From: a virus
IMG/VR virus record: IMGVR_UViG_3300014838_000020
Span: 1-64,000 of that record
DNA length: 64,000 nt
Strand: one strand, 5' to 3'
Positions 28,323-62,553 of this stretch are shown here, piece by piece (the first letter of the stretch is position 1; the number at the start of each line of letters is the position of its first letter). Below the pieces are notes generated by a model. The model was not told the DNA's origin, searched no databases, and worked only from the letters and a program-made list of their open reading frames with translations. Both the position numbers and the translations under genes were made by a program.

Positions 28323-28970
28323 TTAGAGATCTAATACAAATTGCGAATTTCCATAATTTGCCTGGTATTTAGTAATATCTAAGTTTCTAAAGTAGCGTTC
28401 ATTTCTGTTGACGCCATCTTCCTTGTAAATGCTGGGAGGTCTTTCATTTAAATTTACTTCAAAGAGTTCTGGATGGTAAAGAGCATATCCTTTTTGTAGG
28501 GTATTTTCTGCTTTTGTTGCTATTCTCTTAGCACTGTCTAAGTCTTCATAGTCTGTATTTTTCAACTCTAAAATTTCTTCTTTCTTTGACAGCAAGTAAC
28601 TATATTTGTAGGCACAAATATTCATTGTTCCTGGATCAGAATTAAGCATACACACCACATCTGGTTCTCCTGCTGGAATATCATTTACCAGTTTACCAAA
28701 GTTAGGACCTGCTTTACATGTATCATGTAGTAAGAACCAGTAGTCAGATTCTATTTCATTTTCCACGATATCTATTAAAGCAGTATAGTCAAAAGAGTTA
28801 TGTGCTACTCGTGTATGAGTAATTCCTTTGCGAATTTCCCACCATCTTTCGGCGTACCCTCCCTCAAAGATAAAGATATCTTTAGTTTCTACACTTTGAA
28901 GTAGAGAGGGAATAATAACAGGTAAAGTATAAGAACTGAACTTACGTACAGAACTTATTGCTATCTTCAT
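28323..28970 (-). CDS. Glycosyltransferase-like protein, last gene of sugar cassette
   Basis: A 215-residue protein of uncertain family. The N-terminus (MKIAISSVRKFSSYTLPVII) opens like GT-A-fold enzymes, and YWFLLHDTCKAGPNF near residue 80-94 stands where a nucleotide-binding DxD would be (here HDT). It follows the second glycosyltransferase with an ATGA overlap, so it is co-translated. The role is probably in sugar transfer onto virion protein or DNA, but the acceptor is unknown. It converges with the + strand endonuclease gene, leaving ten bases between the stop codons. Confidence 0.5.
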   Translation of the reverse strand: MKIAISSVRKFSSYTLPVIIPSLLQSVETKDIFIFEGGYAERWWEIRKGITHTRVAHNSFDYTALIDIVENEIESDYWFLLHDTCKAGPNFGKLVNDIPAGEPDVVCMLNSDPGTMNICAYKYSYLLSKKEEILELKNTDYEDLDSAKRIATKAENTLQKGYALYHPELFEVNLNERPPSIYKEDGVNRNERYFRNLDITKYQANYGNSQFVLDL

Positions 28971-29821
28971 TTTACTAAACTTGTTAGAATTTCTTTATAA
29001 GAGTCTAAAATATCTGTTGTTTGTAAATAGTCTCTCTGTGTATGGAAAGCATAATGAACGATTAACACATCCCCATAAATAATATTGGGACGATTTAAAC
29101 GTCGTGGAATATCGGAAGAAACTGCAATCTCTTCATTCCAATCTAGTTCAACACCTGCAAGATCTCGTCCAAACCAACAAAGAGAATTGATGGATATTCT
29201 TTCATACTCAGCAAGTACCCATTCAGGGAAACGATAATCGTCTAATGTATTATTAGATAGTTTATCTAGGAAGTTCTTGTGCTTTTTAACAGCCACTTCT
29301 CCATTTTCAACTCCATTAATATTTACACAGTCATATGCAATATTTTCTGCAATATTAAGTGCGCGAATTCTTTGGTGGATATGATCACAGATACTATTAT
29401 TAATAATATTTGGTAGAACAAATAAATATTCAAGATTTTTAATTCGAAAATTCACCATTTTTTCGATAAAGCCTTCTTCGATATAGATGACATCATCATC
29501 TAGTCGAACATAAATTGTACTATGGTCTTTGAATCCTTCCCAAAACTTATTCAGTAACAGAGGATTATGTGACTTGCCTTCGAATTCACGTTCCGGAAGA
29601 GGGAGATGAATTAATCGTTCATCTAGAGTAATTTTATCATACTTTTCCGCTTGTTCATAAAGCCATTTAAGATTTTCTTCATCAGTAGTATTGATACAAA
29701 ATCTAATTTCATCAACATAATCATATTCCCTTAAGATTTGAGGGAGCAGTAATTCCATATACTCTTTTCGACCAGCACCAATAGTGACTACAATCTTATA
29801 TTCCTGTTGCACAGTTATCAT
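28967..29821 (-). CDS. GT-A-type glycosyltransferase
   Basis: A 284-residue protein with a GT-A pattern: an N-terminal KIVVTIGAGRKEYMELLLP strand-helix unit, and YVRLDDDVIYIEEGF near residues 103-117, in which DDD is the expected metal/nucleotide-sugar site. The later IFYG-type region (RRLNRPNIIYGDVLIVHYAF) ends in HYAF, a possible catalytic-base area. There is no signal peptide, so it acts in the cytoplasm. It overlaps both neighbours by four bases (ATGA), placing it in the same operon as the GT75-like mutase and the epimerase. Confidence 0.68.
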   Translation of the reverse strand: MITVQQEYKIVVTIGAGRKEYMELLLPQILREYDYVDEIRFCINTTDEENLKWLYEQAEKYDKITLDERLIHLPLPEREFEGKSHNPLLLNKFWEGFKDHSTIYVRLDDDVIYIEEGFIEKMVNFRIKNLEYLFVLPNIINNSICDHIHQRIRALNIAENIAYDCVNINGVENGEVAVKKHKNFLDKLSNNTLDDYRFPEWVLAEYERISINSLCWFGRDLAGVELDWNEEIAVSSDIPRRLNRPNIIYGDVLIVHYAFHTQRDYLQTTDILDSYKEILTSLVK

Positions 29822-30780
29822 GAAAACAAATCAACCCAAATTAATGCAGCCTCTTTGAACTTCTTAGTGTAACCTTCCGGTTCGCCTTCGATGACATCAG
29901 GTAACTTAGTAATCAATTCTCTATATGTTTCTACTGGAGTTATTTCAGTTAGTTGTATCTTCTGGACTTCTTTCCAGAAATTTTCATTCATTTGAAGTCC
30001 TGGAGCCTGCTTCTTTAGATTGGTATACACATTAGATTGCTTGCGATGTTCAACTGAAGGATAACCTGAACGAACTGCATAGCCTAGATGATCACAAACT
30101 TTTTTCGAAAGTACTCCAGCCCAAATGTCATCATATTGATCAAATCCCCAGTCAGGTCCAAAGATCCCAAAGTACATAATTGGAGTAAGTTCTGCCAACC
30201 ATGCCAAGTTCATTCCACACATTGGGTAAAAGTTATCTTTGGGTATAGTTTGGGTTTCGTAGAATTGAGTTGGTGAAAACCTCAGACCAGGATTATGTAG
30301 ACTAGTAGCGGCATCTAAATCGGGGACGTTACTCCACAGTCCATGACTAATTCCTACTGGAGATTGTTCACGAATGTCATACGGAAATCCGCGAGTGAAC
30401 TCAAATTGATTATTCGAAGGGTACCATCCAAGAGTAGTCTTACTCTCTAGATTTTCAATGTGACCTCGTAAAAAATTGGAACCATCAGGATAGCAATCAT
30501 TATCAAGAGTGTAGATGTGTGTAGCTTGTATTTGCCATGCTTTATAATATCCATAAGACCTACAGGCAGAAGACTGAGTAGGAATAATCCATTCATTCTT
30601 GCCTAAGTCCTTCTTGATATCCTTGTGATCATAAATGTATCCATCGAATCCCTTAGGCATTGTCGGTTTATCACCTATATCTTGAATGATAATTAATTCA
30701 GTAGCCTTTAATTCATCCCACTCTTCTAAAAACTTAAGATGGGGTAAATGATTTGGTATTACAACGATTGGATTAACCAC
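29818..30780 (-). CDS. GT75 / reversibly glycosylated polypeptide-like (UDP-arabinopyranose mutase family)
   Basis: The 320-residue protein carries the main landmarks of the reversibly glycosylated polypeptide family (GT75), known mostly from plants, where it converts UDP-arabinopyranose to UDP-arabinofuranose. Visible are SACRSYGYYKAW (71-82), a TLDNDC nucleotide site (91-96; the usual DDD is DND), TRGFPYDIRE (129-138), whose Arg130 aligns with the autoglycosylated Arg of plant enzymes, SHGLWSNVPDLDAATSL (145-161), FYPMCGMNLAW (184-194) and DQYDDIWAG (214-222). The C-terminus is short. With the upstream epimerase and two glycosyltransferases it could make and use a furanose sugar donor; the substrate is inferred from the family. 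Confidence 0.75.
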   Translation of the reverse strand: MVNPIVVIPNHLPHLKFLEEWDELKATELIIIQDIGDKPTMPKGFDGYIYDHKDIKKDLGKNEWIIPTQSSACRSYGYYKAWQIQATHIYTLDNDCYPDGSNFLRGHIENLESKTTLGWYPSNNQFEFTRGFPYDIREQSPVGISHGLWSNVPDLDAATSLHNPGLRFSPTQFYETQTIPKDNFYPMCGMNLAWLAELTPIMYFGIFGPDWGFDQYDDIWAGVLSKKVCDHLGYAVRSGYPSVEHRKQSNVYTNLKKQAPGLQMNENFWKEVQKIQLTEITPVETYRELITKLPDVIEGEPEGYTKKFKEAALIWVDLFS

Positions 30781-31616
30781 TCTTTTGTCCTCTCTAGTCC
30801 TTCTTGCCAGTTTATCTTAGGTTGCCAACCATTCACTTTACCTACTGCAATATTATCGTTAGCAAAATGTTGAACATCACCAGGAAGCTTTTTACCTTCA
30901 ATGATTCTATCATAATCTAGTGTTTCTAGTAATGTATTAAGAGATAAGATATTCTCTGGGCCACCACCAAAGTCATAATCACTATTCTTATATAACTCGA
31001 AATTTTGAACTTGATCCATTAATAAATCAATATGGTCATCTATGTAAAGAACATCTCTAGTCTGTGTTCCATCTCCAAAAAGAGTAATAGTCTTATTTTG
31101 CACAGAAGCTTTAATAAACCAAGTGAACCATCCCCCATCTTCTGAACCTTCTTGGTTGTGTCCATAAACACTAGAGGGGCGATTAATGATATACTCTAGT
31201 CCGTAAAGTTCGTGATACATCTTAATGTATTGCTCGCCAACTAGTTTAGACAATCCATAAGGAGGAATGATTCCATCCTCTCCAGGATAAACTTTCATGG
31301 AAGAATTAAAAATTACAGGGATATTGTATTGCCTCGCAACTTCACAAACATTAAAGGTTCCTATTGCATTATCAATAAAATCTAATTGGGGATCTCGAAG
31401 TGAAATTTGAGTGGAACAATTAGCTCCGAGATGAACAATCATACAAGGGTGATGTTTTTCTACCGCACTCCTCAGTAAGTAATAATCAGAAGTGGAAGCA
31501 CCATGCTTCTTATCCATGCCTACAACATTAGGTAGTTTGTTAAGAAGATGGCCACCAATAAATCCTGCACTGCCTGTAACCAGGATTTTCTTGTTATATA
31601 ATTTGTCCAAAGTCAT
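30759..31616 (-). CDS. NAD-dependent nucleotide-sugar epimerase/dehydratase
   Basis: A 285-residue short-chain-type (extended SDR) enzyme. Residues 13-21 are the NAD-binding VTGSAGFIG; VHLGANCSTQ near 61-70 is the second NAD loop; the catalytic pair is Tyr120 and Lys124 in YGLSK, with Ser105-Ser106 as the proton-relay serine. NRPSSVYG (about 142-149) and the RDVLYIDD motif near 185-192 are usual for UDP-glucose 4-epimerase relatives. The likely reaction is 4-epimerisation of a UDP sugar, possibly UDP-xylose to UDP-arabinose given the next gene. It overlaps that gene by 22 bases. A perfect promoter lies eight bases upstream of its ATG, with no ribosome site, so the mRNA is probably leaderless. 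Confidence 0.82.
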   Translation of the reverse strand: MTLDKLYNKKILVTGSAGFIGGHLLNKLPNVVGMDKKHGASTSDYYLLRSAVEKHHPCMIVHLGANCSTQISLRDPQLDFIDNAIGTFNVCEVARQYNIPVIFNSSMKVYPGEDGIIPPYGLSKLVGEQYIKMYHELYGLEYIINRPSSVYGHNQEGSEDGGWFTWFIKASVQNKTITLFGDGTQTRDVLYIDDHIDLLMDQVQNFELYKNSDYDFGGGPENILSLNTLLETLDYDRIIEGKKLPGDVQHFANDNIAVGKVNGWQPKINWQEGLERTKEWLIQSL

Positions 31617-32478: not shown

Positions 32479-32618
32479 TACATATCACAACAGCTATCAC
32501 GGTACCCGCAGGTAGGACATTTGTAATGAGCGTGCTCTTGTAGCATCTTTCTGTCGCAGTAAGGACATACTAAATTTGGGGCTAAAGGGTTATGAGTCTT
32601 TTTAGATTCCTCGTCCAC
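32478..32618 (-). CDS. Small zinc-ribbon protein (46 residues) overlapping terminase end
   Basis: A short reading frame starting with GTG inside the last codons of the terminase gene and ending in TAATG with the endonuclease gene. It encodes two CxxC knuckles, CPYC and CPTC, 13 residues apart, followed by SCCDM at the end, a rubredoxin-like or ribbon zinc site. The spacing of knuckles and the tiling with neighbours make translation likely. The function is unknown; it may bind nucleic acid or a protein partner during packaging. Confidence 0.65.
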   Translation of the reverse strand: MDEESKKTHNPLAPNLVCPYCDRKMLQEHAHYKCPTCGYRDSCCDM

Positions 32619-35367
32619 GTCTGCCTCTAGCTGGATCGTGACCTTGATTATTGTAACTTCTCCAAGTGCTAGAGAATGACTTTAGTTTCTCCCTACCTGA
32701 CATTTGGCCAACACCCGCTAGTTCACTCGGAGTGTGACTATGGTATCCACCCATAGCTGCTACTCCAAGAGTGGTCTTTCCTAGTCTGTCTCGTAGTTCT
32801 AGCTTATGGAAATTATTCTCTAGAAGATTATCGACACAGTGCATTATGCAGTCAGCAAGATCTTCTGTACGGACTGGACCGAAACTCATCTTCTGAACTT
32901 TTCCATTCTTAAGTTGTAAAAATTTTAGTTCTTGCTCTAGAAGGCATGTTTGTTCATCCCCAAATTGATCTTTAAAAGAATGCACCCAATTCATACCAAT
33001 CGCAGATTTAAACCGCTCACATCTCTGCATATTACTTTGTAGCGAAGCCTTCTCTTCCAGAATCATAGCCCTGTGTGCTGGACGCATTGCCCTAATTCGT
33101 TTCTTTAGACTATCGACCGTAACGAAACTACCGTATTGGTCAAAGGTAAATTTACGTATTGACCTAAATCTATCGAGAACATCAATCAGATCATCTTCAA
33201 TCATGGCATAGTCGATTTGGTGTTCTGGAAAATCTTCGGGTTTATAACAATTAATATGGTCAATGATAACATGTGTCCAGGTTTCATTATTCTCTGGATC
33301 ATAAATTTCTTCAGCATGAGCTACCATTACAGCAAAGTTATTGTTGTTCTTGCTGGGGTCAGCATGGCCATAATATATATAACCAAGTTTGCCTTGGTCC
33401 TGTGGAGTTAGAACACGCTCTATACCAGTGCTATCTTTAAATGAACTAAATATTCTTTCAACAATTCTTGGGTTCAAGAATGCATCAGTTACTTTAGCCC
33501 ATTGACTTAAGTTCTCAACCCTGAATGTTTCTGGATCTCGCTGTTCCAGTGCTTTCATTTTAGCATCATATAACTGCGGAACCTGTCTTCTAGTGAAAGG
33601 CATTCCTTCACATGCCTCTACATTATCCCAGTCTTCATAAGGGTCCCAACTAGCTAGTTGAATTGTTAACATCGTGGGAAATTCTGGATTACCTGCTTTA
33701 TCAATTTTAATACTATTTTTGTATAGTTCGTGAGCTTTGCCTACTTCGGTGTTATGACTGAACATACCATCGGCGAGTAATGTTTTCGTAGATGTACCAA
33801 GTGCTACAACATCACGATTCCCGGAATCCACAATTGATTCAACAGTAACATACTTAGAAGTTTTATCATAAATTCTTGTACCGTATAATCGGCTAGTAAA
33901 TTTAGCTAATAAACGTCGTGGGCGAATTGATCCAAGTAATTTCATTTTTTCTGATGGACCACCATTAATGGTAATATCAATGCAGTCTCTACCTTTTTCT
34001 TTAATATGAGTACAAAGATCATATCCACGCTCAAGTAGTATTTTAATTAGATTATCTAGTACTGGACCGGGGTTCTGGGCAATACCCAGTTGTCCTTGCT
34101 TAGAATAGGAACCTTCGCCATCATACATACCTGATAAATAGCCTGCATCATATGATTTATCGGTTTCCCAGGTGTCAATGTAACGAATCCTATCACCTTG
34201 CTTGAGGTTTTTGGTCTTAACCCATTTTAGTTCAGGGGAACCAGAGGTTCTTGTTAACCAAAGATGATCCCCAGTGCAAACTACCTCTGGACCATTTGTT
34301 TTTAACTTAAGCGTTGGTGCATTGATGATTGATGTTTCTGTAACGACTGCTTGACGCCAACTTCTGCCGTTGCCCTTACCACCTGGAGCATACTCATCGA
34401 ATCCTACTAATTTATCTCCAACTTTAAGAGACCCTACTGGTGCCCATGTGAGATCTTCTAAAAGAACTGGTGTTTCTGGCACAAGGCAATATGGTGATGT
34501 AGGAATAAAAATTAAGGCATCTTCACCAAACTGCATTAGTGCTGGGTTGATAGCAGCATATACAGCATGTGATGTTCTTGGTCCATCAGTTCCATCAACC
34601 ATGTGGGCAAACTCATCGTATACAACACTGAATACAGTCTTACCACGAGAGGCAGGAGCATTGGAACTAGCTACGTTTCCTCTAATAGAAGCAATTAGTC
34701 TTTGATTTTCTATACCTCTAGCATTTAGAGAAGCAATTTGACGTTTATCGGCTGGTGTTGTTAAAGCAAAAGAATAATCTCTAAGGTCAGCAATGTATGG
34801 CGCAAAGCATTTAGAGTTACTTATGAGGTTAATAAGGTCAGCAAACTGTAGCTCTTTAGCCTGTTTTTCTGCGGTTGCAATACAGGTTATTACGATACTT
34901 TTACCTCTAGCGACACCATAATATTCCTGTGGATCATCAAGAAGAATTAGTTTCCACAATTGATAAGCTAGAAGAATTGCCCCTAGGTGGTTCTTTCCAC
35001 CTCGTCGTCCAATAATTGCAATGATTTCTCCAAAATGGTCATAACCATTGGCTTTTAGCCACTCAACTCTCTTCCAAATATCTGGGTTAATCCCTTTAAC
35101 TATTTCATCAGAGGGATTGAACATTTCAGCCCATTCATTGATGACCCTGAGATCATACTCAGTCATGTTCTCTGTTTCAAGACACATCAATCTTAGTAAA
35201 GTTTTTTGTCTAGGGTATAACCTATCAGCTCCCAAGAAAGAAGGATGTTCAGCAAATTCTACAATAGAGGGTAAACGAACGTCCTCAGAGAGAGCGCCCT
35301 TCATCATCTCTAAAGGGTTTGTAATATTAGCTAGAGATTTTTTGTTTCTCTGATCAAATGATGCCAT
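32602..35367 (-). CDS. terL: Terminase large subunit interrupted by an intein
   Basis: The DNA-packaging motor and nuclease. The ATPase part has a Walker A at residues 119-126 (IGRRGGKN) and a Walker B ending in Asp251-Glu252 (VVYDEFAH). Residue 293 is followed by an intein (Cys294 to Asn539) placed right after the conserved TSPY motif. After the intein Thr540 continues the ATPase. The nuclease part is recognised by YYGHADPSKNNNNF, KFTFDQYG and the late DLADCIMHCVDNLL. Without the intein the protein has 675 residues. The ATG is nine bases downstream of a small upstream gene. Capsid and portal genes are not adjacent, which is unusual for many phages but common in larger ones. Confidence 0.9.
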   Translation of the reverse strand: MASFDQRNKKSLANITNPLEMMKGALSEDVRLPSIVEFAEHPSFLGADRLYPRQKTLLRLMCLETENMTEYDLRVINEWAEMFNPSDEIVKGINPDIWKRVEWLKANGYDHFGEIIAIIGRRGGKNHLGAILLAYQLWKLILLDDPQEYYGVARGKSIVITCIATAEKQAKELQFADLINLISNSKCFAPYIADLRDYSFALTTPADKRQIASLNARGIENQRLIASIRGNVASSNAPASRGKTVFSVVYDEFAHMVDGTDGPRTSHAVYAAINPALMQFGEDALIFIPTSPYCLVPETPVLLEDLTWAPVGSLKVGDKLVGFDEYAPGGKGNGRSWRQAVVTETSIINAPTLKLKTNGPEVVCTGDHLWLTRTSGSPELKWVKTKNLKQGDRIRYIDTWETDKSYDAGYLSGMYDGEGSYSKQGQLGIAQNPGPVLDNLIKILLERGYDLCTHIKEKGRDCIDITINGGPSEKMKLLGSIRPRRLLAKFTSRLYGTRIYDKTSKYVTVESIVDSGNRDVVALGTSTKTLLADGMFSHNTEVGKAHELYKNSIKIDKAGNPEFPTMLTIQLASWDPYEDWDNVEACEGMPFTRRQVPQLYDAKMKALEQRDPETFRVENLSQWAKVTDAFLNPRIVERIFSSFKDSTGIERVLTPQDQGKLGYIYYGHADPSKNNNNFAVMVAHAEEIYDPENNETWTHVIIDHINCYKPEDFPEHQIDYAMIEDDLIDVLDRFRSIRKFTFDQYGSFVTVDSLKKRIRAMRPAHRAMILEEKASLQSNMQRCERFKSAIGMNWVHSFKDQFGDEQTCLLEQELKFLQLKNGKVQKMSFGPVRTEDLADCIMHCVDNLLENNFHKLELRDRLGKTTLGVAAMGGYHSHTPSELAGVGQMSGREKLKSFSSTWRSYNNQGHDPARGRRGRGI
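33751..34488 (-). mobile_element. Intein in terminase with degenerate LAGLIDADG region
   Basis: A 246-residue protein-splicing element. Block A begins at Cys294 (CLVPETPVLL). Block B holds the T-x-x-H motif in CTGDHLW. A single LAGLIDADG-like motif is visible (YLSGMYDGEGSY near 410-421). Block F (VTVESIVDSGNRDVVALGT) and the end LLADGMFSHN followed by Thr as the downstream nucleophile complete it. It is shorter than standard LAGLIDADG inteins and only one clear motif is present, so the homing nuclease may be reduced. Splicing residues look intact, so the terminase should still be functional. Confidence 0.85.
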
Positions 35368-52549: not shown

Positions 52550-53344
52550 TTAATATATTTTTCTAATTTTTTGTTCTTTAATTTCAGCTAGAACTCTTGT
52601 TCTCGCCTGCTCTCGGTAGTCAACACCGATGGTCTCTTTCAGAATCATTCGTTCTTTCAATAGAGAGAATATAGCAGATCCGTAGCCTTCATTCAACTCA
52701 TCTTTGGTAAGATTTGTTGTCATAAACGTTGATCGACTGTCCAAAGCTCTTTGACGAAGAACATGGTCAAAAGTTGCCTCGGAAAGATTTGATTTGGCTA
52801 TAAATTCTTTCCCAACATCATCAAGAATGAATACATCTGCTTTAATGACGTTATCTTCAAATCTATCTCGATCGGTATTGTTACCCCAACCTCTAGTGAA
52901 CTCATCAATCATCTGAGTGAATGTAGCAAAGTATACAGAGTAACCTAATTTAACTAACTCTTTTGCCGTTAGAGCAGCCAATAGAGTCTTACCAGTTCCC
53001 CATGAACCATAATACAAAATACCAATACCATTTTTTACCATAGCCTTATGTTGATTCAAATAAGTCTCTGCTACTGCTAACGCTTTTGGGTCACCATGAT
53101 AGTCAGACCAGTCGAGTCTTTGATAGGTTTGACCTATACCAGCGTTTAGATAGTGTTTATAAAGTTGAAGTTGTTGTTTGCATTCTCCACAGCAGTTATC
53201 AGACTTTGGACCATCGCACGTAGGACAACCACGTTTAGCGAATTTAGATAAATTAGGATTCCTGTGTGATAGAAATTCTATTACATTATCTGATAAGAAC
53301 TCGTAAGTTAAATCCTTATAATCATTTTCCCATGAGATTAACAA
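52550..53344 (-). CDS. DnaC/IstB-type AAA+ helicase loader
   Basis: A 264-residue AAA+ ATPase. The N-terminal part holds a zinc site (CPTC near residue 40 and CCGEC near 51). Walker A is GSWGTGKT (113-120), Walker B VFILDDVGKE (171-180), and the sensor regions include TNLTKDEL. This is the layout of DnaC and DnaI loaders, which place DnaB-type helicases on DNA. The zinc finger is similar to that of Bacillus DnaI. It overlaps the upstream gene by 23 bases. Confidence 0.8.
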   Translation of the reverse strand: MLISWENDYKDLTYEFLSDNVIEFLSHRNPNLSKFAKRGCPTCDGPKSDNCCGECKQQLQLYKHYLNAGIGQTYQRLDWSDYHGDPKALAVAETYLNQHKAMVKNGIGILYYGSWGTGKTLLAALTAKELVKLGYSVYFATFTQMIDEFTRGWGNNTDRDRFEDNVIKADVFILDDVGKEFIAKSNLSEATFDHVLRQRALDSRSTFMTTNLTKDELNEGYGSAIFSLLKERMILKETIGVDYREQARTRVLAEIKEQKIRKIY

Positions 53345-54360: not shown

Positions 54361-54777
54361 TTATTTAGTATACACTACTTCATCATCGGAGTCAAGTACC
54401 CCGGCCTCTCGAAAATCTATTTTTGCTTGGATTAAATGGCCTTTCATGTTCTTAGTTCCATACCCTCCAGGGAATAGTATAGCGTAATCAATTCCTGATT
54501 TGATCATTTCTTCATTACGTACATTGCCCCCAGCCTTACCGTACTTAGACCAGTTAGCCGGATGCGGTTCTACTGTAAAGTTATTATATGTAGCCCACAT
54601 TGCAGCTATTCGATCAACCCCACCGGCATCTCCATGAACAACAGTTATTCCTGCATCCGTTTCTTCCCAAGTTTCTTGTTCTTCACTCCACTCGTTAACG
54701 AACCATTCAGTTAATGTCTGTTCAATAAATCTATAAGCGTAAAAATCTCTTCCACCGGCAACTAATAATCTAAACAT
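54361..54777 (-). CDS. SLOG-family nucleotide-binding protein (DUF2493-like)
   Basis: A 138-residue Rossmann-type protein. The N-terminus LLVAGGRDF and the later VVHGDAGGVDRIAAMWA are the signature of the SLOG/YpsA-like family known to bind nucleotides or nucleotide-derived signals. The end GKAGGNVRNEEMI with FPGGYGTKNM completes the fold. Many phages carry such genes; proposed roles include sensing ADP-ribose-type or cyclic nucleotides. It follows the LuxC-like gene by nine bases, so it may share its regulation. Confidence 0.75.
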   Translation of the reverse strand: MFRLLVAGGRDFYAYRFIEQTLTEWFVNEWSEEQETWEETDAGITVVHGDAGGVDRIAAMWATYNNFTVEPHPANWSKYGKAGGNVRNEEMIKSGIDYAILFPGGYGTKNMKGHLIQAKIDFREAGVLDSDDEVVYTK

Positions 54778-54786
54778 TTTACTCCT

Positions 54787-55818
54787 TTACATATCATTAA
54801 AGATATCAAAATCCGATTGCTCATCTACAGAGTCCCAAAAATCTAGGGAATGCATTGAACCAATATTGCAAATTCTACTGGGCATGTTAAATTCTACCAT
54901 AGAAACTACCTCTTGATCACATGGATCTACAGCAATTGTCGAAGTGTCATTTCTTAACATGCTGATTAGTTCGTTAGCATCATTTATAGACTTTGCTATA
55001 TATATTCTTATATCTCCGTAAAGATTATTGATTTGAAAAGAGTTAACACCTTTTATAACATGAAGATAACGAGATATTTTTTCTTTAGTAATAAATCGTA
55101 TTAGATTTGCTTGCTGTACAAAATTTAGTTTTGATCGAAATTCTTCTATTTGTTCTCCATAGACTGAACTGTATATATCACTAATTTTAGTTAGAATTTC
55201 TTGATTTGGTTCCCCAATAAATATATAGAATTTAGGAGATAATGAACCAAGCCCATAAAAATTGAAGAAATCAAAACAAATGTTATCAATTAATGTATCT
55301 GTTATAGAGTTACTATTGACTACTCCAAAGGATAGTTTATCTTCATGAGTGTGAATTCTACGATGCTTAGTTGCTAATGTCTTATAATATTCTATAGTTT
55401 CATAATTACCAAAAACTATAATATCTGTTGCATTATCAATTGTATTTCTCCAACTAGAAGATAACTCTACTTCTTGATCAGTGCCTATGTGTACACTAGT
55501 TTTAATTTCATAAGTATTATGATTTTTAATAATATTTTCTATAATTAAAGCTTCATCCAATGATGATGGCTTTATGTCTATAGTATCTGCACCACTAAGT
55601 TGCAGTGCCAAAAATACACTTTTAGAAATTGTTAGTGGTGTACCATCTGATCCTATTAGTACTATTTTTCGTTTGGTTTTATTATTATGCTGATTAAAGT
55701 AAGGTGGTATAAAACTATTACTAATTAATCGTTCATAATCACTTTCTAAAAATTCACCAAATTGACTTAAAATTGATGAAAGATTATTATCATTATTAAT
55801 ATAATAATTATTATTCAT
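54787..55818 (-). CDS. LuxC-like acyl-CoA reductase homologue, Cys to Ser at active site
   Basis: A 343-residue protein matching the LuxC acyl-CoA reductase layout. VLIGSDGTPLTISKSVFLAL and IDIKPSSLDEA (53-90) correspond to the nucleotide-binding opening, DIIVFGNYETIEYY (132-145) and KLSFGVVNSNSI (161-172) to the next conserved blocks, and NFYGLGSLSPKFYIF (186-200) to the catalytic-site block, where LuxC has Cys but this protein has Ser192. LuxC normally reduces activated fatty acids to aldehydes with NADPH. The change, plus an Asn-rich start, suggests altered chemistry. It follows a LuxE-like gene by seven bases, as in lux operons. Family assignment is by pattern only. Confidence 0.58.
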   Translation of the reverse strand: MNNNYYINNDNNLSSILSQFGEFLESDYERLISNSFIPPYFNQHNNKTKRKIVLIGSDGTPLTISKSVFLALQLSGADTIDIKPSSLDEALIIENIIKNHNTYEIKTSVHIGTDQEVELSSSWRNTIDNATDIIVFGNYETIEYYKTLATKHRRIHTHEDKLSFGVVNSNSITDTLIDNICFDFFNFYGLGSLSPKFYIFIGEPNQEILTKISDIYSSVYGEQIEEFRSKLNFVQQANLIRFITKEKISRYLHVIKGVNSFQINNLYGDIRIYIAKSINDANELISMLRNDTSTIAVDPCDQEVVSMVEFNMPSRICNIGSMHSLDFWDSVDEQSDFDIFNDM

Positions 55819-55825
55819 ATTAATC

Positions 55826-56854
55826 TTACTTTGGCTTAATACCAGTTTTGATTATTTCATCAGATCGTCTGGTTATTTGTACTGTGCTATTACTATACTG
55901 AATGCCTAAATCATCACTAATTATGAATGGACAACTCCATACATTAGCTATATCAATAAAAGCTAAATTACCTTCAACTCCAGGTTCACATTCTTCTCCT
56001 GTAGTGGGATCTAGTACTCGTACAGAAATAGTAGGTGGCACATAATATGTGAGATTATCTCCCCATCTAAATAATTGACTTGATAGTTCAGTATTATAGT
56101 ATATCTGAATTACATCATTTGTAGGAGTATTGAAGTATTTTTTTAGCCAATCATTTAATTCAAAAAGAGTTAAATCCATCTTTGATAACTCATAGTAATC
56201 CCCAAATTGAAGAATCATTGATGTACCAGAAGTTATATCTATAATAGGATTAGAAGTTAAAGTATCTAGTGTTAACTTAAATTGATAAAATTGATTTGGT
56301 GTACCTACAATCATTAGTGGTTCATCTGATATTAAACTCTTAGAAGATGTAAATGCTTCTACCGCCTTAGGATCAGTTGGATTTACAGTCTCATAGATTC
56401 CACGAGAACCATATATTAAGAATAAATATTCCCAGATATATGATAAGAGAGAATTAGGTTTTTTATCATCGAGAAAAACAATTCTATTAGAATTACTAAT
56501 ACTTATTACACTAAAATTAAAATTACTAGTTATTGATGCTCTAAGAAATTCAGTATCTCTTAACACATGATGCTTTGGTTTATTACTCTGTGAAATGAAT
56601 TCAATTTCATTAGTAGGATCAAACCCATTAAAGTTATTTAACTGCAATTTTCTCTTAGAAAACTCATAAGAAGGTACTAATGGTATTTTACGCCAATCAT
56701 CTAATTTACCAATAGAATATTTTTTATAGTTCTTATTATGTAAACGATGTAAATCATAGAGATCTAAGGCTATATCACCAAAATTAAATTTGTCTGGATT
56801 TTTGATATACTCTTTTGTATTATTTAGTATACTATTTATTTTATCGATTTTCAT
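55826..56854 (-). CDS. LuxE-like acyl-protein synthetase homologue, catalytic Cys lost
   Basis: A 342-residue protein of the LuxE/PaaK acyl-activating group. The N-terminal block WRKIPLVPSYEFSKRKL (54-70) is as in LuxE; where LuxE has SSGT this protein has SQSN (88-91), followed by KHHVLRDTEFLRAS. The block PLMIVGTPNQFYQFKL (179-194) and the C-terminal blocks PPTISVRVLDPTTGEECEPG (273-292), EGNLAFIDIAN and SDDLGI (313-318) match closely. LuxE ends in a Gly-Cys motif that carries the acyl group; here the end is TGIKPK and no Cys is present. It could activate or hold acyl groups differently. It is translated with an ATGA overlap with the exonuclease. Confidence 0.6.
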   Translation of the reverse strand: MKIDKINSILNNTKEYIKNPDKFNFGDIALDLYDLHRLHNKNYKKYSIGKLDDWRKIPLVPSYEFSKRKLQLNNFNGFDPTNEIEFISQSNKPKHHVLRDTEFLRASITSNFNFSVISISNSNRIVFLDDKKPNSLLSYIWEYLFLIYGSRGIYETVNPTDPKAVEAFTSSKSLISDEPLMIVGTPNQFYQFKLTLDTLTSNPIIDITSGTSMILQFGDYYELSKMDLTLFELNDWLKKYFNTPTNDVIQIYYNTELSSQLFRWGDNLTYYVPPTISVRVLDPTTGEECEPGVEGNLAFIDIANVWSCPFIISDDLGIQYSNSTVQITRRSDEIIKTGIKPK

Positions 56855-57804
56855 TGAAGTCTCTTACCAATATTAAATTTGTACCATAACAGCAAATTTT
56901 GCCAATCCTGTAATATTGTATGAAACTCTAATTGATTTAATAACTCTTTGAACTGGGGAGCCTTAAAGTCATCAGGCATAGTAGGATCAAACTTTAGATC
57001 TTCCATACTAACCGATGGGAACTCCTCTTGGTTATCTAGTTTGATTAGTTTATAAGCTAGCTCAACACTATTCTTTTGAGTTTTTATATACTCATCATTA
57101 GCTAATACATTATCAAGTGAACCATAGGTTTCCATTAAACCAGCAGCTTTAACTGGTCCAATATTTTTAGCACCAGCAATTCCGTCTGATTTATCGCCCA
57201 TTAAACTCCATAATTCTGGTAATTGTTCTGGAGTTAAATTATATTTACTAATAACAGCATCATAATCAATTATCTCTTCTTTAATATTTTTACTAAGACC
57301 CAAAGAAGGTTTCAAAACTGTAACATTGGGTCGTATAAGTTGTAACATATCATGATCCAAAGAAACTATTATTACTTCATCGAACTCATCTGCAAAATCA
57401 ATTGAGATTTTTGCAATTATATCATCTGCTTCTACACCACTGAACATCCTTTGGCATATATTTGCAGCATCCATCAAAGAATATACCATATCTCTTTGAG
57501 GAGAAAACTCATCTGGATAATCTGGATCGTTCTTTAAATTATCTTTTAATTTTTGTTGTCGTCTACGTTCACGATTAGCTTTATATTCTGGATATAAATC
57601 CCTTCGTTTTTGAGATCTACCTTTATCAAAGGCTACAATCATATGAGTTGGTTCTAAGCGTTTAGTTAAATAACTTATAGTATTTAGAAAACCATAAACA
57701 CCCCAAGTTGGTTCGTTTTTGGAGTTACGAAGATCATGTACACGTAATGACGTGTAGGCTCTCAGCAACAATGAAGTGCCATCTAGAATTAATAGCTTTT
57801 TAAT
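56851..57804 (-). CDS. 5'-3' exonuclease (T4 RNase H / Pol I 5'-nuclease type), AUU start
   Basis: A flap-type 5' nuclease of about 317 residues. The family needs the N-terminal Asp of LDGTSLL, which lies upstream of the first conventional start codon (TTG at 57771). In frame, the only upstream candidate near the promoter is ATT at 57804, giving IKKLLILDGTSLLLRAY. Other landmarks are ILQ-type acidic residues EADD (near 128), SLDHDMLQL and a GDKSDGIAGAKNIGPVKA helix-hairpin-helix. It removes RNA primers and flaps. It shares an operon with the LuxE-like, LuxC-like and SLOG genes. Confidence 0.8.
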   Translation of the reverse strand: MKKLLILDGTSLLLRAYTSLRVHDLRNSKNEPTWGVYGFLNTISYLTKRLEPTHMIVAFDKGRSQKRRDLYPEYKANRERRRQQKLKDNLKNDPDYPDEFSPQRDMVYSLMDAANICQRMFSGVEADDIIAKISIDFADEFDEVIIVSLDHDMLQLIRPNVTVLKPSLGLSKNIKEEIIDYDAVISKYNLTPEQLPELWSLMGDKSDGIAGAKNIGPVKAAGLMETYGSLDNVLANDEYIKTQKNSVELAYKLIKLDNQEEFPSVSMEDLKFDPTMPDDFKAPQFKELLNQLEFHTILQDWQNLLLWYKFNIGKRLQ

Positions 57805-61023: not shown

Positions 61024-61453
61024 TTTCTTTTCCTTCATTAATTAGTTTACCATCTAAATGTCTAATTTCATGTAAAGCTACTCTTGCTTCAAAATCATGG
61101 AATATTTCATGATGTTCATTGCCTTCAATATCCTGATAGGATATAACTACTTCTTCAATAGAAGGGCGTATGTAGCCTTTCTTACCGTATTCGATAGAAA
61201 GACAGCCTTCTAATGCGTAGGTAATACTTCCTCGTTGATCAATAATAGTAGGATTAACTAAGAAATTATCTCCTACTAGACAGGCTCTAACGTTTTGGCC
61301 TAATTGATTAGCAGCAATACCTACTGCATTATATTCTTGCATCACTTCTGTTAGTGTTTGATGAACATGTGGTAAACCACCGAATTCGTCTATGTGTAAT
61401 TCTGGTACTGGAACATTAAGAGATGGATCTGGATATTGAACTATATCAGTCAT
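61016..61453 (-). CDS. def: Peptide deformylase
   Basis: A 145-residue metallo-enzyme that removes the formyl group from the N-terminal methionine of new proteins. All three motifs are present: GIAANQ (45-50), EGCLS with the metal ligand Cys84, and HEIRH with His128, Glu129 and His132. The C-terminus is short, as in phage enzymes. Phage deformylases may speed protein maturation in the infected cell. It overlaps the RNA-ligase gene by four bases. Confidence 0.9.
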   Translation of the reverse strand: MTDIVQYPDPSLNVPVPELHIDEFGGLPHVHQTLTEVMQEYNAVGIAANQLGQNVRACLVGDNFLVNPTIIDQRGSITYALEGCLSIEYGKKGYIRPSIEEVVISYQDIEGNEHHEIFHDFEARVALHEIRHLDGKLINEGKENE

Positions 61454-62553
61454 GGATATCTCAATTCAGGTTTTAATAAAGTCCAAGCTTTATTATCTAT
61501 TGGTTTATTATCTAATAGAAAAAATACTAAAGCAGATGAAATTTCAGGATGACTCATAATATCAAGCGCAGCATCTTTTCGAGACTTACCTTCTTGTTTA
61601 GCAGCTAGATTTTTTGCAGCATCACAAATTTTTTGGTGTTTTTGTGTTAGTCCATTAACTATCTCTTTTATAAAATCATGTAGTTCATCAGGTAGATCTT
61701 GAATCAATTCATCTAATGACATACCGGCAGATAATGCCTCCCAAATAGTTACTGTAGATAATCCTGTTGCCAGTTTATGTAACCTCACATATTCAGAGAA
61801 TTTAGCTTTAACTCTAGTAGAGGGTTCAGTTAATACTTCAGGAATAAACCTAACTACATATCCTTCAAATTCAACTTCTCCATCTTTACTGATTACTTCA
61901 TTCAATTTTTCAAGATCATTGAGCCCTTCAAACTTTAAAGCTTTACGACCATTATATTGCACTTCAACATCTGCACCTGTTGCAATATCAATTGCTCCAA
62001 GATAAATAAGTTCTTCTTTGTCATATGGAATTACTATTCTATTCCATGGAGCAACATATTCAAATAAAACTGTTATTTCACCTATATTTTCTAAATCAAT
62101 AAGATCCATATAGTTATTATTTAATAACCATAGTTTTGCCATCTTTGCTTGCTCAGATTCAAATGAACCTCTTGTTGCAAATTGCACTCCCTCATTATCA
62201 AAGTACATAATTACTAATGAGCCATCTACTTTTTCGGTTATTTCTACATCTAATCCAATAGGTAGTGGCCCCATAGTTGAACCTTCTTGATGTTCAGACA
62301 TATTAGCAAATTTAGGAAATGGACGAGCTATAATATATGGATCATTATCAGGACTTTCTGAAATAATTAGTCCACGAGAGGCTTTAATTTCTTTATTCCA
62401 CACTTTAGAATACTGAGCTCTATCAGTATAATTAAGTAAGTGAAAATTATTATTAGAATTAACCTTAACTGCAATCAAACCTTCTTTAATAGCTTTAAGA
62501 ATAGTTGCTTTATTAAACTGTGAATATAAACGTGTTGGTATTCTTTTATTCAT
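61450..62553 (-). CDS. Rnl1-type RNA ligase
   Basis: A 367-residue RNA ligase related to T4 Rnl1. The nucleotidyl-transferase Lys is Lys108 in EKVDGSL; further motifs include RGLIIS (60-65), EYVAPWNRIVIPY, EGYVVRF and VKAKFSEYVRLHK. The C-terminal domain of about 100 residues is helical. T4 Rnl1 repairs tRNA anticodon breaks made by host defence; no polynucleotide kinase or tRNA gene is seen in this window, so the partner is unknown. Its AGAGGAG ribosome site belongs to an 18-base tandem repeat. Confidence 0.87.
   Translation of the reverse strand: MNKRIPTRLYSQFNKATILKAIKEGLIAVKVNSNNNFHLLNYTDRAQYSKVWNKEIKASRGLIISESPDNDPYIIARPFPKFANMSEHQEGSTMGPLPIGLDVEITEKVDGSLVIMYFDNEGVQFATRGSFESEQAKMAKLWLLNNNYMDLIDLENIGEITVLFEYVAPWNRIVIPYDKEELIYLGAIDIATGADVEVQYNGRKALKFEGLNDLEKLNEVISKDGEVEFEGYVVRFIPEVLTEPSTRVKAKFSEYVRLHKLATGLSTVTIWEALSAGMSLDELIQDLPDELHDFIKEIVNGLTQKHQKICDAAKNLAAKQEGKSRKDAALDIMSHPEISSALVFFLLDNKPIDNKAWTLLKPELRYP

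Follow-up and report, generated by a model that had tools for sequence, protein, structure and literature searches.

A phage LuxE-LuxC pair as the probable remnant of a 7-deazaguanine pathway

LuxE and LuxC normally act on fatty acids, and their function is not obvious when a LuxE-LuxC-like pair turns up in a phage operon. The pair lies in the window, a 64,000-nt stretch of viral DNA (positions 1-64,000 of IMG/VR record IMGVR_UViG_3300014838_000020), and an earlier note on this sequence had read it as a repurposed carboxylate-handling pair with new chemistry. The protein families and the phage operon setting of that reading are borne out by our analysis; new chemistry is not supported and appears unlikely. 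We propose instead that the pair is probably what remains of the reductase half of a phage 7-deazaguanine pathway, likely kept in a non-catalytic capacity, and that the intact route would lead from 7-carboxy-7-deazaguanine (CDG) to preQ1.

Identity and active sites of the window pair

The two genes are adjacent on the minus strand, at the positions first reported for them, and encode a LuxE-like protein of 342 aa (55826..56854 (-)), assigned by family match and motif inspection, and a compact LuxC-like protein of 343 aa (54787..55818 (-)), assigned by its relatives, an HMM and an AlphaFold model. A 5'-3' exonuclease gene (56851..57771 (-)) precedes them. A 4-bp overlap joins its stop to the LuxE start, and the following gaps, between LuxE and LuxC and between LuxC and a SLOG/YAcAr (PF10686) gene (54361..54777 (-)), measure 7 and 9 bp, so that these genes form one operon. 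Its order continues with a conserved downstream neighbour, a phage Hfq-like gene (PF23874; 53725..54147 (-)), followed by a small protein, the DnaC-like helicase loader that served as the anchor for finding relatives (52550..53344 (-)), DnaB, primase and DnaE.

The window LuxE matches PF04443 above the curated cut-off in a profile search (4.2e-10) and the PDB LuxE chain 7xc6_E (2.5e-9), and a bacterial-LuxE HMM scores it at 106 bits, with 200 shuffles reaching at most 2.4. The window LuxC on its own falls below the PF05893 cut-off (0.091, a marginal result of a single-sequence profile search), so that the profile check proposed earlier succeeds for LuxE but not for LuxC alone; the LuxC of relative L087 matches the same family at 1.1e-6, and a bacterial LuxC HMM gives the window protein 15.7 bits, with 0.3 for the best shuffle. 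Structure prediction, also proposed earlier, agrees with the assignment: the AlphaFold model, computed from an alignment of phage rows only (mean pLDDT 80), has as its top PDB match the LuxC chain 7xc6_A of the Photobacterium LuxC-LuxE complex (Foldseek, E 4.6e-10, prob 1.00; 350,542 chains). In an alignment scan of bacterial LuxE loci, LuxC followed LuxE in 37/37. Given this gene order, the L087 match, the predicted fold and the 28 related contigs described below, we consider the placement of 54787-55818 in the LuxC family secure.

Both proteins have lost key residues. In LuxE, the P-loop position reads SQSN (residues 88-91; codons at 56582..56593 (-)) instead of the SSGTT of intact LuxE, the GG[WF]K motif (GGFK in bacterial LuxE) is gone, and the C-terminus reads TGIKPK, where relatives have EKGCSLTY, so that GC has become GI and the acyl-carrying Cys is lost. 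The TE, SDDLG and R motifs, ANL positions that contact the adenylate, are retained. In LuxC, Ser192 (codon 55243..55245 (-)) aligns with the catalytic Cys column, which holds Cys in all pathway-positive relatives, and the GNVP motif, which intact phage copies have as SVP, is gone as well. Of the columns in which at least 90% of bacterial rows agree, the window proteins match 37/103 (LuxE) and 21/97 (LuxC). The earlier note had correctly read Ser192, SQSN and the missing C-terminal Cys, but overlooked the loss of GNVP and the absence of about 130 N-terminal residues, which, like WHHDG, all phage LuxCs of this group lack in comparison with bacterial LuxC. From these residues, both window proteins are predicted to be catalytically dead.

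The intact operon in related phages

Neither tblastn against isolated phages nor short-peptide scans of viral contigs returned close relatives of the LuxE/LuxC pair. DnaE scans retrieved distant phages only and put the window phage in the neighbourhood of Bixzunavirus and Rhodococcus phage E3 (about 34% identity), in which an aminotransferase fills the corresponding slot and LuxE/LuxC are lacking. An alignment search with DnaC yielded 28 close relatives (L087-L113 and L131; 61-69% DnaC identity), all of them carrying the compact LuxC. The relatives are metagenomic contigs, many near-identical and most incomplete, and the 10 with and 18 without the pathway are counts of contigs rather than of independent events. 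Distinct LuxC alleles number 6 with the pathway and 11 without it, the window being included in the 11.

Ten contigs share the order DpdA, exonuclease, LuxE, LuxC, aminotransferase, QueD, QueE, FolE, dCTP-deaminase-like, Hfq-like, small protein and DnaC, and an eleventh (L178) runs from DpdA through exonuclease and LuxE to LuxC, where the contig ends. The exonuclease thus lies between DpdA and LuxE in pathway-positive relatives, and the window SLOG gene occupies the place of their aminotransferase-QueD-QueE-FolE-dCTP deaminase-like genes. FolE, QueD, QueE and the class-III aminotransferase were assigned by Pfam/NCBIfam profiles. The DpdA-like protein is divergent and is not matched by the Pfam TGT model PF01702; a tblastn hit (2e-6) connects it to an annotated DNA guanine transglycosylase of a phage, and its AlphaFold model has TGTs as top PDB matches, with DpdA 7ui4 further down the list. 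Its gene occurs in exactly the 10 intact-operon contigs. QueD and the aminotransferase with its PLP lysine coincide with it, being found in 10 contigs each, as do FolE in 11 (including that of L112), and LuxE in the 10 intact contigs plus the window and L112.

The enzymes of the intact operon retain their active-site motifs in every distinct version: SSGTT, GGWK, SE, TEDxG and KGC in LuxE (the SSGT P-loop in 6/6 pathway relatives), GCLSPK and SVP in LuxC, LGKA with the PLP lysine in the aminotransferase, CxxxHGH in QueD, the three-Cys motif in QueE, and CEHH and HLC in FolE. Two genes of the canonical pathway are missing: neither QueC (PF06508) nor QueF (PF14489) was detected in any of 32 records (0/32 each), and both models do score in control genomes. 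In every intact operon seen, the gene after FolE is dCTP-deaminase/dUTPase-like (L177:13865-14425 and equivalents). In different pathway-positive phages, DpdA adjoins one to several Amidoligase_2-like genes, a methyltransferase-like gene or a GNAT acetyltransferase gene (L177:2009-4644, L178:2047-4632, L183:4236-5165, L185:1095-5177, L186:4433-5092).

Profile and alignment scans of the 75 kb window record (G000) found no aminotransferase, QueD, FolE or DpdA, and QueE is missing from the window operon. The record is probably a fragment, the longest relatives measuring about 132 kb.

LuxC in phages that lack the pathway

Save for one FolE, pathway genes are missing from 18/28 contigs, and LuxC is kept in all 18 as well as in the window. 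LuxE and the aminotransferase are both gone in 17 of these relatives. L112 is the only one that also has LuxE, in broken form, together with an orphan FolE: its LuxE (L112:101-1126) contains a TAG and has lost every motif, its LuxC carries Thr at the catalytic column, and FolE lies at 2281-2811. L112 thus appears to represent an intermediate stage of pathway loss.

The catalytic Cys is present in 6/6 LuxC alleles with the pathway versus 2/11 without it (hypergeometric one-sided 0.0023, ignoring kinship), and the SVP motif in 6/6 versus 0/11. In the LuxC tree, L112 groups with pathway-positive L113 (support 100/100), while the window groups weakly with L087/L102 (80/80) on a long branch (1.54), which suggests that the pathway was lost separately in different lineages. 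The closest pathway-less LuxC pairs differ at dN of about 0.19-0.30, with synonymous change close to saturation. Pathway-less LuxCs, mostly with a decayed active site, are therefore under purifying selection, and they change faster than the DnaC of the same phages. Conservation in the absence of the pathway, combined with this faster change, points to LuxC having been retained for a purpose distinct from its former catalysis.

Could LuxE and LuxC nevertheless be non-functional after pathway loss and simply on their way out? The motif-less, TAG-containing LuxE of L112, a split LuxC in L098, the long window branch and the disappearance of LuxE and the aminotransferase from 17 relatives would all be expected under pure decay, and the earlier note had held that relatives with an intact Cys would mark the window copy as decayed. 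Such relatives do exist, and the copy appears to derive from an intact enzyme; however, the catalytically altered LuxCs remain intact under purifying selection, which argues against simple decay. With LuxC present in the window and in each of the 18 relatives that lack the pathway, dN far under the saturated synonymous change, and both window reading frames open over 342-343 codons with tight junctions, we regard pure decay as unlikely. The selection estimate concerns the LuxC family, the sole other dead LuxE (L112) being truncated by a stop; for the window LuxE, the only indications of retention are its intact reading frame and the kept adenylate-contact residues. At least one of the two proteins seems to have been retained in a different function. 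The split LuxC (L098:4247-5379) lies in two frames and has near-identical intact sisters, which leaves an error or a real break as its origin.

A putative route from CDG to preQ1 and the role of the dead pair

In the canonical pathway, FolE, QueD and QueE convert GTP to CDG, QueC converts CDG to preQ0 and QueF reduces preQ0 to preQ1 (PMC6884629, PMC13329287, PMC13279940). The intact relatives share FolE, QueD, QueE and DpdA with the described phage systems for 7-deazaguanine DNA modification (FolE-QueD-QueE-QueC, DpdA, QueF or ArcS; Hutinet 2019, PMC6884629), but LuxE, LuxC and the aminotransferase stand in the place of QueC and QueF, and the window phage differs from these systems in having no Que/DpdA genes. 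Since the intact operon encodes an acid-activating ligase, an acyl reductase and a transaminase where QueC and QueF would be expected, we read it as a route from CDG to preQ1 that would bypass both enzymes. FolE, QueD and QueE would make CDG; LuxE would activate its carboxylate with ATP to CDG-AMP and then carry it as a LuxE-bound thioester; LuxC would reduce the thioester to the aldehyde, 7-formyl-7-deazaguanine; the class-III aminotransferase, from a family that acts on semialdehydes, would convert the aldehyde to preQ1 (7-aminomethyl-7-deazaguanine); and DpdA would exchange guanine in DNA for preQ1. We infer the CDG specificity of LuxE and LuxC from their membership in the operon. ATP-dependent activation of the CDG carboxylate has a precedent in QueC (PMC13279940), and the expected product, preQ1, is already known in phage DNA (PMC6884629). 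Among annotated proteins, the closest to the DpdA-like protein belongs to Flavobacterium phage immuto (FolE, QueD, QueE, DpdA, QueF), whose DpdA operon points to preQ1 since it includes QueF; immuto, however, uses this known nitrile reductase and has no LuxE, LuxC or aminotransferase. A primary-amine product would also fit the amidoligase, methyltransferase-like or acetyltransferase genes beside DpdA, whose enzymes could further modify a primary amine within DNA. As a counterpoint, QueC and QueF could be supplied by the host.

The same DpdA-adjacent genes, found in several relatives, and the classical role of LuxE and LuxC as fatty-acid enzymes would equally suit a scheme in which LuxE, LuxC and the aminotransferase make another amine, from a fatty or amino acid, for attachment to 7-deazaguanine, with CDG used otherwise. 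We consider this improbable, as the phage pathway without QueC and without these three enzymes would end at CDG, and the three are exactly the set needed to turn an acid into an aldehyde and then an amine. The proposal that Ser192 confers a new acyl-O-serine chemistry on the window protein can be set aside as very improbable: Ser is a conservative replacement for Cys and occurs in 5/11 pathway-less alleles, but Ser192 is not conserved among related phages, the same column holding Thr in 3 alleles, Cys in 2 and Arg in 1, which argues against a conserved Ser nucleophile, and the P-loop required for adenylation is gone from the window LuxE, while most phages with a Ser-LuxC have no LuxE partner.

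On the remnant reading, the window lineage would have lost FolE, QueD, QueE, the aminotransferase and DpdA along with the catalytic residues of LuxE and LuxC, and would have retained both intact reading frames, most likely for a binding or scaffolding role; the present role of the pair is thus probably non-catalytic, perhaps ligand-binding. The partners within the intact operon distinguish it from the bacterial LuxC-LuxE pairs (PDB 7xc6; Bacillus, Desulfosporosinus and Burkholderiales pairs), which have the same families, fold and, in the loci found, LuxE-then-LuxC order: the P-loop, the LuxE GC Cys and the LuxC Cys are shared, but the phage genes are accompanied by an aminotransferase and 7-deazaguanine genes, and the window copies appear catalytically dead.

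In the open-access literature, where absence is no proof, we found neither phage LuxE/LuxC nor LuxE/LuxC alongside 7-deazaguanine genes, and no formation of preQ1 through a transaminase. If true, the proposed route would be a second natural way to preQ1, in which an acid is activated, reduced and transaminated rather than a nitrile being formed and reduced, and luminescence-type enzymes would be able to act on a modified DNA base. The phages moreover retain, next to their replication genes, metabolic enzymes that have lost their catalytic residues yet evolve under purifying selection, so that the ligands of these proteins become of interest. Type IV CBASS uses CDG for modifying its own proteins. 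A more speculative extension, to which we give little credence at present, is that dead subunits (LuxC; LuxE and LuxC; possibly the Lys-less aminotransferase of Bixzunavirus/E3) have repeatedly been kept as non-enzymatic ligand binders, for instance as CDG decoys, after loss of a full QueC/QueF-independent route.

The class-III 'aminotransferase' of Bixzunavirus and Rhodococcus phage E3 belongs to the same Pfam family and sits in the same slot upstream of Hfq-like/DnaC, adjoining the exonuclease in E3, but neither phage has LuxE/LuxC. The PLP lysine is replaced by Gly or Pro in 13/13 distinct Bixzunavirus, E3 and related sequences (L014:3854-5050, L015:4080-5123, L020, L023, L030, L031, L036, L040, L041, L042, L044, L047, L114), which public records call aminotransferase, a name also borne by phage family phrog_2736. 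Descent of these pseudo-aminotransferases from the pathway enzyme is unsupported by the tree, where they have long branches, do not group with that enzyme and have no resolved origin.

Elsewhere in the window, a terminase-like protein (32602-35367 (-)) contains an interrupting stretch with a weak match to an intein splicing domain (E 0.0067), and an RNA ligase/tail-fibre attachment family protein (phrog_562, 2.8e-62) is encoded at 61450-62553 (-). Genes for several putative glycosyltransferase-like proteins and for an NAD-dependent epimerase occur at 28323-31616 (-) and, in the rest of the contig, at L010:3881-8256. The latter part also encodes a WhiB homologue (L010:11086-11373; contig 73585-73872), which suggests an actinobacterial host for the window phage.
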